A stretch of DNA of 64,000 nt from Acidobacteriota bacterium (GTDB lineage Bacteria > Acidobacteriota > Terriglobia > Terriglobales > Acidobacteriaceae), in assembly GCA_021779935.1 (NCBI GenBank), contig JAJXZT010000027.1:1-64000 (forward strand). The letters are read 5' to 3'. The notes under the pieces were generated by a model. It had not been told where the DNA came from. It searched no databases and saw only the letters and a program-made list of their open reading frames with translations. Shown one piece after another: positions 28,564-50,126 of the stretch. How positions within the stretch are numbered: the first letter of the stretch is position 1; the number at the start of each line of letters is the position of its first letter. Both the position numbers and the translations under genes were made by a program.

Positions 28564-31185
<2,622 letters not shown>

Positions 31186-31200
31186 CAACGGGTCATAACA

Positions 31201-31245
31201 AAACATGCCGCGGAGCTTTCAAAACGAGGGTTCTGCGGCATGTTT
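31201..31245. terminator. Hairpin terminator between clpB and a convergent gene
   Basis: AAACATGCCGC and GCGGCATGTTT form an 11-bp stem around a 23-base loop. The loop contains the stop codon of the convergent membrane-protein gene. It can act on both strands, with only short T-runs. Confidence 0.6.
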
Positions 31246-31833
31246 GTCTTCGGGCTTTGTTGCGAACTCGGTTTTCAGCCGCCAGCCGAAATAGACAAGC
31301 AGGATGAGGCACCACGCGAGGCCAAACGGTGCAATCTGCCGAAACGGCCGCGCGGACCTGAACGCCATGACCGCTGCGTAGCCTACAATGCACGCGAAAA
31401 CAGATCCCAGCGCCGCACCTGCGATTCGCAGAATGCGGGGCAATCGCGAAAGGCTGTGGCGGAGTCTTGTGTCGATCTTTGCCCCCACCCAGAGCCAGAG
31501 AATCCCAACCCCAAGAAAGAACAAAACATCACCCGGAGTAAACCAAGCCCCTCCTCCGTCGACCTCCCACTTAAAAAGTGGACGATCACGAGGGGTAAGG
31601 GCATCTGGCAGTACCACTCCCGTAGAGAACAAAAGCACAGGAAAGTTGATGGCGTTGGAGATTCTCTGCGCAGGAGCGGGGTAGTTCTGCACGAAGTACT
31701 CTACCGTGCTTCCTCCTGTAGCGCGAACACCCTTGCGATATTGATACGGCTCATAAACATAGAGAGCCGCCGCCAATACAATCTGCAGGAGTGGCAAGAC
31801 AACTATCCATCGAATTCGTTTCAAGGCATTCAC
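31219..31833 (-). CDS. Membrane protein of unknown function
   Basis: A 204-residue protein with about four to five hydrophobic segments (near 10-28, 60-78, 100-118, 137-158 and 170-187). The last is followed by a charged tail (FATKPEDKHAAEPSF). The start is GTG. No motif identifies a family. Its 3' end overlaps the clpB terminator stem. The next minus-strand gene upstream (32349 to 31918) also encodes a small membrane protein. Confidence 0.6.
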   Translation of the reverse strand: MNALKRIRWIVVLPLLQIVLAAALYVYEPYQYRKGVRATGGSTVEYFVQNYPAPAQRISNAINFPVLLFSTGVVLPDALTPRDRPLFKWEVDGGGAWFTPGDVLFFLGVGILWLWVGAKIDTRLRHSLSRLPRILRIAGAALGSVFACIVGYAAVMAFRSARPFRQIAPFGLAWCLILLVYFGWRLKTEFATKPEDKHAAEPSF

Positions 31834-37970: not shown

Positions 37971-38067
37971 CCGCATTTCCCGCCCATTCCCTTTTCGCGC
38001 TGGCCGACGCAGCTCTGTGTTCACCGGTACTTGCTAATGAGCGGTTGGAGGTCTAGTCTGTCGCGCT

Positions 38068-38463
38068 ATGGCTAAACAGGTTCCGATTGGTAGCAAAGGC
38101 CACTGTGAAGAGCGCGTGAAATTCGAGAACACGCTGACGGCTCATCACCACGAATTGCCTCCCGTCTATTCCACCCCGGACATGATCCGGTTGATGGAGA
38201 CGGCGGGCTTCCACGCGCTCCAGCCCTTCTGCGACCTCGGAGAAATCTCGGTCGGGACGGCGATCAACGTCGTGCACATGCTCCCCGTCGGCCTCAACGC
38301 GCTCGTCAGGGCCGAGGCCGAAGTGGAGTCGTTCGACGGAAAGTTCTATGTGCTGAAAGTGACGGTCACCGAGGGCAAGCGCGAGATCGGACACGGCACC
38401 ATTCAGCGCGCCATCGTGAACATGGAGAAATTCCTCAAGAAGCACGACATCCCCAAGCCCTAG
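38068..38463 (+). CDS. FlK-like hotdog thioesterase
   Basis: A 131-residue hotdog-fold protein. The catalytic residues of fluoroacetyl-CoA thioesterase FlK (Thr, Glu, His at 42, 50, 76) align with T36, E44 and H70 here at identical spacing (STPDMIRLMETAGF and INVVHMLPVG). Thioester hydrolysis of a small acyl-CoA is therefore likely. Specificity for fluoroacetyl-CoA needs additional gating residues and is not claimed. Confidence 0.82.
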   Translation: MAKQVPIGSKGHCEERVKFENTLTAHHHELPPVYSTPDMIRLMETAGFHALQPFCDLGEISVGTAINVVHMLPVGLNALVRAEAEVESFDGKFYVLKVTVTEGKREIGHGTIQRAIVNMEKFLKKHDIPKP

Positions 38464-38507
38464 AAACGCGCGCCCCATCGCGTGCGAAATTACCAGGCAG
38501 CATCAAA

Positions 38508-38538
38508 AAAACGGAGGCGGCGAAGGCCGTCTCCGTTT
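38508..38538. terminator. Bidirectional terminator
   Basis: AAACGGAGGCGG and CCGTCTCCGTTT pair around CGAAGG (one mismatch), between the thioesterase gene and the convergent C1 peptidase gene. An A-run on one side and TT on the other suit both directions, best on the minus strand. Confidence 0.75.
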
Positions 38539-38560
38539 GGCGTTATGGTGAATATCGCGC

Positions 38561-40000
38561 TTACTGCATGCTGGTCCAGTCGGTGAATGGATCCCACGGC
38601 GGCAGCATGACCGGCTTTTTGTTGATGAGTTGCATCAACTCCGGTGGCACGAAACGCTTGTCGATGATCACCTCGAAGACATTCTGGTGGAACCATTTGT
38701 TGCCGATGGTGAACCAGCCGTTTTCGCCTACTTTGGTTCCCCACGAGTTTTCCACCTTCCACTTGTCGGGCACGCCGTTCTGCACATCCACTCCGGTGAA
38801 CACCATCGCGTGATTCGGTGTGCCGTTGTCAAAGTCGAGTGTGTCTTTCTTGTCCATGGAGAAATCGACACCGAAGAGATCCTTGGAATCCACAATGCCG
38901 TCTTCCCAGAGACCGGATGGCCGGTCGCCATCGGCGGAGTCGTTGGCGCCGAACCACACCGGCTGATCGGCCATTACGGATGCCAGTGCCATGTCCTGCA
39001 TTTCTTTCGCCGTAATGTTGATCGCCCACAGATTTTCATGGTCGGCCATGCCGCGTTCCCATGCCCATTCCAGCTTCTCGTGCATCGGCTGTCCGGGGTA
39101 GTTGACGAAGCGAACGTAGTTATTCAGATCCCGTCCGAGGAACTCCTGGTAGAAGGCGACTGGGGTGTACGTCTTGAGTGGGCTGACCTTACCGTCTTTC
39201 GTCTCGTAGCGCCATTGGAAGCTCTGCGGTGGCTCGCCCAGGCAGAGCACCAGGATCTTGTAGACGTCCTGCAACGCCGCGGTTTTGATCGCGCGCATCT
39301 GCTCGATGCTCTCTCCCTTTGCCGAGGCTTCGCGGATCTGCACCACGGCTTTACGCAGGCGGGCGGCCAGCAAGTTGACCATCTCGTCCGTGTGAGAAGC
39401 GGCGTAGTCGTCGGGCATGATGCTCTGGGGCACGGCGCCGTACTTGTCGATGAGTGCCTGTGCGTAATTCCAGTTGCCGCCGTCGCTGATGATGTCTTTC
39501 AGCAGGGTGTCCATGCGGCGGCTGTGGATCGGCTCATTGCGCAGCGCGATCGCCAGTTCCAGCGACCGGTTGGAGGCTTCCAGCTTCTGGTAGAACTGCT
39601 CGTAAGCCTGCGAGAGCGTGAAGTCCTTCATGTTGTATTTGTTCATCACCTCCGGACGCAGCATGTTCAATCCGGCAAACAGCCAGCACCGGCCCGTGGC
39701 CTTCTGGTCGGTGATGGAACCTGGATCTTTTATGACGTGCGTGAAGTATTGGTCCGTGTGATGAACCTTGTCCTGGTCGATAACCAGTGACTGAATGCTG
39801 TGATTAGCCAGTGCGTTCCGGTCAGCGCGGAGTTGCGGCGTCATCTTAAGTGATTCGCGCAATGATTGCAGGGCGGCGGGGCTCAAGCCTTGTTCAGCCG
39901 TGGGAGCCTCACCGGGGACGGGCGTGTACTGTGCAAAGACTGGAACGGCTATCAATGCCGCCAGCAGGAAAAAGAGCAGGGATCTGCATATGGATTTCAT
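38561..40000 (-). CDS. Exported C1B cysteine peptidase (bleomycin hydrolase/PepC type)
   Basis: A 479-residue papain-fold aminopeptidase. The catalytic residues are C105 (TGRCWLFAG), H397 (TPNHAMVF) and N418 (ENSWGTKVG). Q99 in SITDQKATG occupies the oxyanion position. PepC and bleomycin hydrolase are normally cytosolic hexamers. This one has a clear signal peptide (MKSICRSLLFFLLAALIAVPVFAQ), so it should act in the periplasm or outside. The C-terminal self-blocking arm ends TDWTSMQ. AAGGAG is 12 bases before the ATG. Confidence 0.92.
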   Translation of the reverse strand: MKSICRSLLFFLLAALIAVPVFAQYTPVPGEAPTAEQGLSPAALQSLRESLKMTPQLRADRNALANHSIQSLVIDQDKVHHTDQYFTHVIKDPGSITDQKATGRCWLFAGLNMLRPEVMNKYNMKDFTLSQAYEQFYQKLEASNRSLELAIALRNEPIHSRRMDTLLKDIISDGGNWNYAQALIDKYGAVPQSIMPDDYAASHTDEMVNLLAARLRKAVVQIREASAKGESIEQMRAIKTAALQDVYKILVLCLGEPPQSFQWRYETKDGKVSPLKTYTPVAFYQEFLGRDLNNYVRFVNYPGQPMHEKLEWAWERGMADHENLWAINITAKEMQDMALASVMADQPVWFGANDSADGDRPSGLWEDGIVDSKDLFGVDFSMDKKDTLDFDNGTPNHAMVFTGVDVQNGVPDKWKVENSWGTKVGENGWFTIGNKWFHQNVFEVIIDKRFVPPELMQLINKKPVMLPPWDPFTDWTSMQ

Positions 40001-40352
40001 GACGGGGAAGTGTCTCCTTGAATGTCCTCAGCATCAACTTTGATTAGACCGTTGGCAGGTCCGGACTAGCAGAGGGCCGTCAACAGGGCGTCTTCCATAC
40101 TTTCCGCCTCCCGCAAATGAAACGCAAACACACGGAGATGGCACTGAAGTGGTGGTTCATAGTGCCAATAAGGAAATCGCGATATTTTTGTGAAAACCTT
40201 GCGACGCAGGAAGAACTCGTCGCATCTATTTCAAAAGCAGCACGCATGAGAATGCGTGGAGTTGTTTCATCCCTCGGATGGCCTGTGGGGGGCGTCCGAG
40301 GGTTTTTGTTTTGTCTGGAAGTAAACGTAGACTGCTGAATAGATAAATTGAC
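40001..40352. other. Gene-free region with orphan hairpins
   Basis: About 350 bases between two minus-strand genes. Its only strong signals are three consecutive hairpins oriented for plus-strand transcription, the last a terminator. A 73-codon frame at 40117-40338 has no ribosome-binding site and runs through the terminator, so it is not called. Confidence 0.6.
40200..40312 (+). ncRNA. Candidate small RNA: two hairpins plus terminator
   Basis: TGCGACG/CGTCGCA (40200-40224, 11-base loop) and CACGCAT-GAGA-ATGCGTG (40241-40258, a GNRA tetraloop) precede a terminator. The terminator is CCCTCGGA/TCCGAGGG (40271-40302) followed by TTTTTGTTTT. No plus-strand gene lies upstream for which the terminator would be needed; the last one ends at 38463 with its own terminator. 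I see no convincing promoter, so the 5' end is unknown. Confidence 0.45.
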
Positions 40353-40979
40353 TTATCTCGATAGGGCGCTGCCCAGGTAATCGTCCACAACCTTCCGGTC
40401 TCCTTCGAACAACAGCGCTTGCAATCCTGCCCGCCGCGCGCCTTCCACGTTCTTCATCTTGTCGTCGAGAAAAAGAGTTTCTCCGGGAGCGGTGCCCATC
40501 GCTTCAACCGCTCGAAGATAGGACTCCCGGGCCGGTTTCACCACGCCGATCTCGCACGAGAAGAGTTGCGCGTCGAATTCGCAGAGCCAGTCGAGTTGGC
40601 GGCGCATTGCGGCCAGCATGTCGCGCTGCATGTTGGAGAGGATGCCGATGGTCATACCGGAGGCCTTGGCGTGCCGCGCAAACTCCAGCATCTCCGGGTT
40701 GATGCGCGTCCACTGCCGGTTATCCAACTCGATTTGCCGGTCGATCGCCGCCGAGGTGAGCACCACGCCCGTGCGCTGCGCAACGTGCAGCCAGTACTCC
40801 GCGCCGGAGAGTTCATTCAGATCGTACTGGTCGCGAAACTCCCAGTAGAGCTGCTCGAAGGTCGCTTCCGAGGTGCGAAAGATTGCCCGCAAAGCCGCCC
40901 AGTCTTCGGGCGTCGGTGGCAGCGAGAGAACCTTGCCGTAGTCAAAGAGAATGCCGCGAACGTTTACTTCAAGCCCCAT
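40353..40979 (-). CDS. HAD family hydrolase
   Basis: A 208-residue haloacid-dehalogenase-like protein. The nucleophile is D13 in LFDYGKVL; the second Asp of DxD is replaced by Gly, as in YihX-type members. Motif II is S115 (ILSNMQ), motif III K148 (GVVKPARESY) and motif IV LDDK (D172/D173). A helical cap lies between 20 and 95. It is most likely a sugar-phosphate or nucleotide phosphatase, though the missing second Asp leaves the mechanism open. The ATG at 40979 leaves 100 bases to the divergent tgt gene. Confidence 0.85.
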   Translation of the reverse strand: MGLEVNVRGILFDYGKVLSLPPTPEDWAALRAIFRTSEATFEQLYWEFRDQYDLNELSGAEYWLHVAQRTGVVLTSAAIDRQIELDNRQWTRINPEMLEFARHAKASGMTIGILSNMQRDMLAAMRRQLDWLCEFDAQLFSCEIGVVKPARESYLRAVEAMGTAPGETLFLDDKMKNVEGARRAGLQALLFEGDRKVVDDYLGSALSR

Positions 40980-41079
40980 ACATTCATCATAAGGGAAGGT
41001 CTGAAAGTTTGCAGGTGTAGAGGAATCGGCAGCGCCCGCCTCCACGCCATATCCCGCGGAAACATTTACAATCGCCGTG

Positions 41080-42219
41080 ATGTCTTTTTCGTTCCAGGTG
41101 GAAGCCACTGATGGCGCGGCGCGTGCCGGACGTTTCATAACGCCTCACGGCGCCGTCGAGACGCCCGTCTTCATGCCCGTTGGCACTGTCGCCAGCGTCA
41201 AGGGCGTGCCACAGGATGTGCTCGAAGAACTTGGCGTCCAAATCCTTCTCAACAACACTTACCATCTTTATTTGCGCCCCGGCGTTGACACGGTTCGCAA
41301 GCTGGGCGGCGTGCAGAAGTTCATGAGCTGGAACAAGCCGATCCTCACCGATTCCGGCGGATTCCAGGTATTCAGCCTGAGCGAGTTGCGCAAGATCAAC
41401 GAAGATGGCGTGCAGTTCCGTTCGCATCTCGATGGTTCCCTGCATTTCTTTTCGCCGGAGAACTCCATTGCGGCCGAGATCGGCCTCGGCGCGGATATCA
41501 TCATGGCCTTCGACGAGTGCACGGAGTTTCCTGCCGAGCACGAGCGCACCCGCAAGTCGATGGAGATGACGTTGCGCTGGGCGCGGCGATCGCGCGATTA
41601 CTGGCATGCGCACAAGCACGAGACGCCGTGGTACGACGAGAAGACGCGCCAGATGGGATCGCCGCAATACCAGGCTCTCTTCGGAATTGTCCAGGGTGGA
41701 ATGTACGCGGACCTTCGGCGCGAGTCAGCCGAGCGCACGGTCGAGATTGATTTTCCCGGCTATGCCATTGGCGGCCTGAGCGTGGGTGAACCCCGCGAAA
41801 AAACCTGGGAGATGGTCGAAGCGACAATCCCCCTGCTGCCGAAAGACAAGCCGCGCTACGTCATGGGTGTCGGCACTCCCGAGGAGATCGTGGAATATGT
41901 GCGGCTCGGTGTTGACATGATGGACTGTGTGTTGCCGACGCGTGCGGCGCGCCACGGGCTGCTGTTCACTTCGGAGGGCAAGGTAAATATCAAGAACGCG
42001 CGGCATGCGCGGGATGAGGCTCCGCTCGACCCGAAATGCGGTTGCAAGGTCTGTGCGCGCTACTCTCGAGCCTATCTGAGGCACCTATATGCCGCTAACG
42101 AGGTACTCGCTCAAGTCCTCAACACGGTTCACAACCTGGCCTATTACCTTGACACCATGCGCCGAGTCCGGCAAGCTATACAACTTGGGGAGTTCGCTAG
42201 TTCCCGTTCTGCTGTTTGA
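41080..42219 (+). CDS. tgt: tRNA-guanine transglycosylase
   Basis: A 379-residue TIM-barrel enzyme exchanging G34 for preQ1 in GUN tRNAs. The active-site segments LTDSGGFQVFSLS, FDECTEFPAEHERT, IGGLSVGEP and YVMGVGTPEEIV are intact. The zinc site is DPKCGCKVCARYSRAYLRHL (three Cys and His). A GTG three bases upstream (41077) is an alternative start. The next genes are yajC-secD-secF, the same order as in many bacteria. Confidence 0.96.
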   Translation: MSFSFQVEATDGAARAGRFITPHGAVETPVFMPVGTVASVKGVPQDVLEELGVQILLNNTYHLYLRPGVDTVRKLGGVQKFMSWNKPILTDSGGFQVFSLSELRKINEDGVQFRSHLDGSLHFFSPENSIAAEIGLGADIIMAFDECTEFPAEHERTRKSMEMTLRWARRSRDYWHAHKHETPWYDEKTRQMGSPQYQALFGIVQGGMYADLRRESAERTVEIDFPGYAIGGLSVGEPREKTWEMVEATIPLLPKDKPRYVMGVGTPEEIVEYVRLGVDMMDCVLPTRAARHGLLFTSEGKVNIKNARHARDEAPLDPKCGCKVCARYSRAYLRHLYAANEVLAQVLNTVHNLAYYLDTMRRVRQAIQLGEFASSRSAV

Positions 42220-42533
42220 TGACGGGATGCATGTTTGGTACAGACGGGTCTCCATGGATTGAGCTGCGTAGTCTGCACTCGCCGCTGATGTCGACAGAGC
42301 CCCCAAATCACCTGGCACTGCTGATGAGAAGCACACGGGCCGAACCCGCCGAACTAGAGCGGGACAGGGCTGGTTCGCGGGAAGCCGCGACACGGTGTAT
42401 CATCGCCAAATCCAGGTAAACGCTGGTAGCTGCAAGGCTCAATGGGATTCAACTGGGATTCCAGGGCGAGCCGTGTGGCGAACCCTTGCGAGGCAAAGCC
42501 CGCGAGGGTGTTGTAACGGGAGTTAGCACGCTG
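42220..42533. other. tgt-yajC intergenic region
   Basis: About 314 bases. TCGCGG-GAAG-CCGCGA (42375-42390) and an imperfect hairpin ACCCTTGCG/CGCGAGGGT (about 42482-42511) are visible just before yajC. They suggest a structured leader for the sec genes, but no known riboswitch is recognised. No gene is supported. Confidence 0.4.
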
Positions 42534-49878: not shown

Positions 49879-49900
49879 TTTGTAACCGTACTGTTTTGAA

Positions 49901-50002
49901 GCGCGACGGCGTGACCACGCCGTCACGCTGATGTGCCACGGTAGTGGCACTGCTTGTTGTACGTACCTCCTCAGCAAGAGCCTCTCACCCGAGAGGCTCT
50001 TG
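49901..50002 (+). terminator. Three consecutive hairpins, the last a terminator
   Basis: GACGGCGT/ACGCCGTC (49905-49924) and GTGCCAC/GTGGCAC with loop GGTA (49933-49950) precede CAAGAGCCTCTC/GAGAGGCTCTTG with loop ACCC (49975-50002). The last is followed by TCATTT. The 12-bp last stem closes the Ton-TPR operon. Confidence 0.75.
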
Positions 50003-50126
50003 TCATTTATGTCCCCAACTACGCACTCGGGTCGCTGACAACCGCCATCGCCGCCTGATACGATTTCCAACGCTGGGGATGCGTTTCTGCATCGTTCTTC
50101 TCATACCTCAGCGGAGCAGCGCTTTC

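Follow-up and report, generated by a model that had tools for sequence, protein, structure and literature searches.

Orphan terminators have been scored as hints of small RNA genes, as the available part of PMC2573895 describes. In the Helicobacter pylori small RNA RepG, the terminator loop is C/U-rich and acts as a seed for known targets (PMC8295292, in the part available). The element described here resembles RepG in that its terminator loop has a distinctive base composition and is a putative pairing seed; unlike that of RepG, the loop is G-rich and is a candidate seed only, and the likeness does not imply common descent. Small RNAs derived from 3' UTRs, as presented in the accessible portion of PMC9438474, offer a second comparison. 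The element shares with them a location within a gene's 3' region, as seen in relatives, a conserved terminator hairpin and a genome that encodes Hfq, but its leading part is not conserved, and it is known from sequence alone. Terminators of Hfq-binding small RNAs carry seven or more T according to the excerpted text of PMC5558911, whereas the tract here (TTTTTGTTTT) is interrupted. Few acidobacterial small RNAs are on record, with 4 in a table of PMC9029176 (accessible part), and two acidobacterial motifs, Acido-1 and Acido-Lenti-1, are named in the available part of PMC2864571. Both are in Rfam, and neither matches here. Our search of the literature on acidobacterial, terminator-loop and orphan-terminator small RNAs found no publication on this element.

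The nearest described arrangement is an intrinsic terminator between convergent genes. As in that arrangement, a GC-rich stem and a T tract lie at the 3' end of a gene with a convergent neighbour, both in the window (the whole 64,000-nucleotide stretch that we analysed) and in two relatives (G061 and G126). Unlike ordinary intrinsic terminators, however, this one combines a varying stem with a loop preserved in several genera, and in this genome it is parted from its gene by another gene. A loop that is kept at one locus on a varying stem is a useful handle, and suggests recognition of the loop.

The element comprises three predicted plus-strand hairpins, the last of them terminator-like, as a preliminary description of this DNA had claimed. 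Hairpin 1 (40200-40224) is enclosed by an outer stem (40191-40195 with 40229-40233), and hairpin 2 (40241-40258) has 7 bp and a GAGA loop; both are derived from folding. The terminator stem-loop (40271-40302), with the conserved apical segment GCCTGTGGGGGGC at 40281-40293, is identified by its fold, by homologous hairpins in relatives and by a covarying stem. Its GC-rich stem is followed directly, on the same strand, by the T tract TTTTTGTTTT (40303-40312), which is the layout of an intrinsic terminator, and judged by these features the element is an intrinsic terminator.

The 123 nucleotides at 40190-40312 fold on the plus strand with -55.3 kcal/mol (z -5.75), a stability matched by none of 200 shuffles. 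This value is reached by 6 of 12,776 sliding windows in a G+C-corrected scan of both strands of the whole window, and two of the six overlap the element. The leading 75 nucleotides alone (plus strand, z -4.30; 0 of 200 shuffles equally stable) are less special than the full stretch, since 49 of 12,786 windows in the G+C-corrected scan reach their value; the terminator alone has a fold z of -4.31. On the minus strand the leading part has z -2.40, with 4 of 200 shuffles equally stable, and 499 of 12,776 windows reach the 123-nucleotide value, so the fold is weaker than on the plus strand. A consensus terminator scan of 38000-42500 lists hairpin 2 as its plus-strand site here and lists it as terminator-like on the minus strand too; the stem at 40271-40302 is not listed. 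A search of the window with Rfam gives no match at the gathering threshold, in agreement with the preliminary description, which had recognised no known RNA family, and nothing credible at a loose threshold, where the best match, BTnc201, scores 20.6 bits (threshold 105; E 0.28). Other folds that are very stable for their G+C content lie at 49881-50023 and 31151-31273 of the window. Upstream of both the hairpins and the peptidase gene described below, an inverted repeat TGGCACT...AGTGCCA with a 15-nucleotide spacer (40139-40167) is a possible operator or extra hairpin.

Two minus-strand genes flank the element, as previously stated. One encodes a C1-like peptidase (Peptidase_C1_2, 38561-40000), and the other a HAD-type hydrolase (40353-40979; the start codon at 40979 is a choice, with the frame open to 41138), whose gene is convergent with the element and ends about 50 nucleotides from the last stem. 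The element lies 190-312 nucleotides upstream of the peptidase start codon, and the earlier proposal that it is antisense to this upstream region holds as a statement of position only. The plus-strand gene upstream encodes an FlK-like thioesterase (38068-38463); about 1.8 kb separates its stop codon from the terminator, with the peptidase gene in between. This thioesterase gene had been credited with a terminator of its own, an attribution that calls for correction. The inverted repeat between the thioesterase and peptidase genes (38509-38538) is predicted to be a good terminator on the minus strand and a weak one on the plus strand. With seven T on the minus-strand side against three on the plus, it mainly resembles a terminator of the peptidase gene, and this asymmetry is as expected if the repeat serves that gene.

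A direct DNA search with the element found only the element itself, in 1 of 61 genomes (its own included), so homologues were sought through gene order. Of 120 family genomes, 95 contain a match to the HAD protein. When the 420 nucleotides downstream of the HAD gene were compared by eye in 29 relatives, a similar apical word was seen in a hairpin in G061 (L006) and G126 (L005). The thioesterase has a match in 105 of 300 genomes; we examined the best 30 loci from these 105 genomes, the window's included, and added 77 further loci, partly from the same genomes. Among the best 30, a hairpin with the loop word lies downstream of the thioesterase gene, on the same strand, in G175, G029, G126 and G061, with 96 to 247 nucleotides between the stop codon and the loop. 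The hairpin is thus carried by five genomes, that of the window (G000) included. Matches to the loop word in L056 and L063, 348 and 518 nucleotides downstream, are surrounded by sequence unlike the hairpin and were rejected.

G061 and G126 have the order thioesterase, hairpin, HAD, as in the window, without the C1 peptidase gene; in G029 the HAD gene does not come next. The hairpin is followed by a T tract in G175, G126 and G061 and by a degenerate one in G029, which gives a plus-strand T tract in four of the five genomes. The earlier claim that the terminator serves no visible protein gene concerns the window, where it looks orphan; in these four relatives the hairpin follows closely on the thioesterase gene.

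Support for the terminator stem comes from covariance models. A model built from the window and G061 and run over 94 loci recovers G029 (E 4e-5), G126 (E 7e-5) and G175 (E 0.006). Its next matches, at E 0.022 and weaker, are the ordinary terminator of G069 (on both strands) and three weak ones. Across the alignment of the five sequences, 98.1% of cells are paired, and both sides have changed in 7 of the 11 stem pairs. None of 500 shuffles reaches any of the five measures, and sliding the partners abolishes the signal. Compensatory change upholds the stem in these five sequences, in an alignment fitted to the structure; because the fit was to a model from two of the five, it is biased towards that structure. 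Since the flanks are unalignable, homology rests on position, loop and stem.

Across 100 thioesterase loci, the five-sequence model finds the four relatives, which are in it by construction, and otherwise nothing better than E 0.3; the window's own locus in this set (L046) stops short of the hairpin. A hairpin model (R1) has a match at E up to 1 in 78 of 398 family genomes. Thirty of the matching loci were read as sequence: 4 are the known locus, and among the 26 others a partly similar loop is found in two, one in G222, beside other genes, and one in G062. G175 is absent from the R1 matches, having either not been drawn or been lost to stricter filters. Another model (R2), applied to 200 genomes of the order, matches G000, G126, G029 and G017 at E up to 0.01, the G017 match (L190) having a different loop; G061 and G175 are not among the R2 matches and may not have been drawn into the 200.

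A thioesterase tree was built from 52 distinct sequences, taken from 70 loci after identical ones were dropped. A branch with support 100/99 sets apart seven of the 52, among them the window's, and the hairpin is present in five of the seven genomes concerned. With a root outside the seven, the hairpin carrier G029 is the first branch within them. G069 and G155 belong to the same clade, close to G126 and G175, and have ordinary terminator-like hairpins at this place that do not contain the loop word, so the loop is dispensable. The other 45 rows of the tree are loci without a match to the hairpin model at E up to 1. This distribution is best read as that of a hairpin ancestral to the seven-member group, which would have been lost once or twice in the G069/G155 lineage.

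The C1 peptidase has a more restricted distribution. Of 100 genomes searched at E 1e-20, this one alone has a match to the protein; G061 and G029 are included in the 100, and G126 and G175, which were left out of this set, have an interval between thioesterase and hairpin that is too short for a C1 gene. We consider it probable that the element descends from the terminator of the FlK-like thioesterase gene and was displaced by insertion of the C1 peptidase gene on the other strand. In the ancestor, the thioesterase's own intrinsic terminator would have faced the convergent HAD gene. On the simplest history, the peptidase gene then inserted on the opposite strand and split the thioesterase gene from its terminator, which looks orphan because the peptidase gene sits between the two. 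The terminator would most likely still halt plus-strand transcription before the HAD gene, and the transcripts stopped might be read-through from the thioesterase gene or antisense transcription across the peptidase gene. More generally, an ordinary terminator can come to look orphan once a new gene has arrived, and the gene order of relatives points to the cause. Borders of the insertion were looked for and none was found. A 12-nucleotide inverted repeat flanks the peptidase gene (38551-38562 and 40175-40186) and could mark an insertion; it is no better than other repeats in the region.

A displaced terminator alone does not account for the two leading hairpins, which are better folded than shuffles. 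Neither has a counterpart in the four relatives G175, G126, G061 and G029, none of which is of the same genus. The leading parts of the five regions have differing folds, and they share no common word beyond that of shuffles, of which 299, 291 and 262 of 300 perform equally well at word lengths of 8, 10 and 12. Conservation of the stems in relatives was the preliminary description's own test of its proposal; in our set, which holds no same-genus genome, the terminator stem is conserved and the two leading hairpins are not. Judged by these comparisons, the three hairpins have different histories, in that the terminator is homologous to hairpins in relatives and the leading two are not.

The apical word GCCUGUGGGG is kept in relatives, and the sequence that precedes it is unalignable. 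G061 and G029 have exactly the segment GCCTGTGGGGGGC, and G175 and G126 a near-identical one. All five regions contain the word GCCTGTGGGG, with a summed total of one mismatch, the shuffle minimum being 6 (0 of 300 shuffles as good). A loop kept in this way suggests that it may be recognised by a protein or another RNA. Among 150 family genomes, the exact loop 13-mer has 14 sites in 12 genomes and adjoins the thioesterase gene at three, in the window, G061 and G029. The surroundings of the other 11 sites were folded, and gene context was read for L037 only. This site is a second copy of the 13-mer in the window's genome; it lacks a T run, lies on the opposite strand by a DNA-polymerase-like gene and was taken as chance.

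Within this genome the loop word precedes a T run at this locus only. Among 250 family genomes, the loop word before a T run has a match in 96, with 128 rows (118 places when overlapping registers are merged) against about 109 in a reversed control, as counted by eye; these counts do not support a common repeated terminator loop. Two of 30 fetched loop-word loci are terminator hairpins at other genes, L099 in G162 and L092 in G157. The loop word is therefore not exclusive to the locus, which slightly lowers the odds of the clade-specific small RNA discussed below. In G162 the terminator hairpin (L099:1501-1524 region, minus strand) carries CCTGTGGGGG and lies between two frames that we take, from the reading frames alone, to be BNR-repeat-like and LexA-like.

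The preliminary description had proposed a small RNA, and a small RNA is possible because the loop is conserved, the leading part is well folded and Hfq is encoded, the Hfq gene being clear (G000:C37:209047-209235, E 1e-26). In one version, the locus would be a small RNA gene of about 110-125 nucleotides with its own promoter, whose G-rich terminator loop would serve as a seed for C-rich mRNAs with Hfq as helper. The compact three-hairpin fold and a loop word common to five genomes beyond shuffles are consistent with this, and RepG provides a precedent for a terminator loop as seed (PMC8295292, in the part available). We nevertheless regard such a gene as unlikely, given leading hairpins that are not conserved, the lack of a match in Rfam and the position of the hairpin in the thioesterase 3' region in relatives. 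No sigma-70-like promoter, the type sought, scores better than shuffles in the leading part of any of the five genomes. The orphan position, too, is weakened as an argument for a small RNA, because the hairpin of relatives follows the thioesterase gene and the peptidase gene was detected in this genome alone out of 100; what had seemed to call for a small RNA admits a simpler explanation. A related proposal is a clade-specific small RNA of Terriglobales-like Acidobacteriota, which would derive from the thioesterase 3' region, use the G-rich loop CCUGUGGGG as an Hfq-dependent seed, and have been freed by the peptidase insertion and the rise of two new hairpins ahead of it. The location in the 3' region of a gene is found in four relatives, and by analogy the element could form the 3' terminus of a small RNA derived from a 3' UTR, but this fuller scenario seems to us improbable. 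In none of the five genomes does the loop pair with the thioesterase mRNA better than shuffles do. Two weaker Hfq matches elsewhere in this genome are over the cut-off. Regulation of the CsrA type was considered because the loop of hairpin 1 contains AGGA, and was discarded, as the genome has no CsrA match.

The remaining readings concern which transcript, if any, the hairpins end. The terminator might close a long 3' UTR of the thioesterase mRNA; this UTR would extend for about 1.8 kb, antisense to the whole peptidase gene, and the antisense transcription would couple both genes. The T tract of the inverted repeat at 38509-38538 is weak on the plus strand, and the plus-strand terminator-like site in the 38000-42500 scan belongs to this element (hairpin 2), but the repeat may terminate adequately on both strands, and we think this coupling quite doubtful. 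It is very unlikely that the hairpins act on the minus strand as a terminator for the HAD mRNA: here, as in G061, G126 and G175, it is the plus strand that carries the T tract, and the minus-strand fold is the weaker one. In favour of this reading are the minus-strand listing of hairpin 2 and the end of the HAD gene about 50 nucleotides before the last stem. A functionless chance cluster of inverted repeats would fit the absence of the leading hairpins from the four relatives examined, yet hardly the covariation of the terminator and the conservation of its loop, and we give it next to no credence. The displaced thioesterase terminator is the reading that we prefer to all of these.

One of the relatives presents a separate feature. 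Just downstream of the hairpin in G029, a plus-strand frame (L032:1554-2230) contains an in-frame TGA, and the residues after it are Pro-Val-Cys; this U-x-x-C pattern would be consistent with selenocysteine. We presume that this frame resembles the glycine/betaine/D-proline reductase family.
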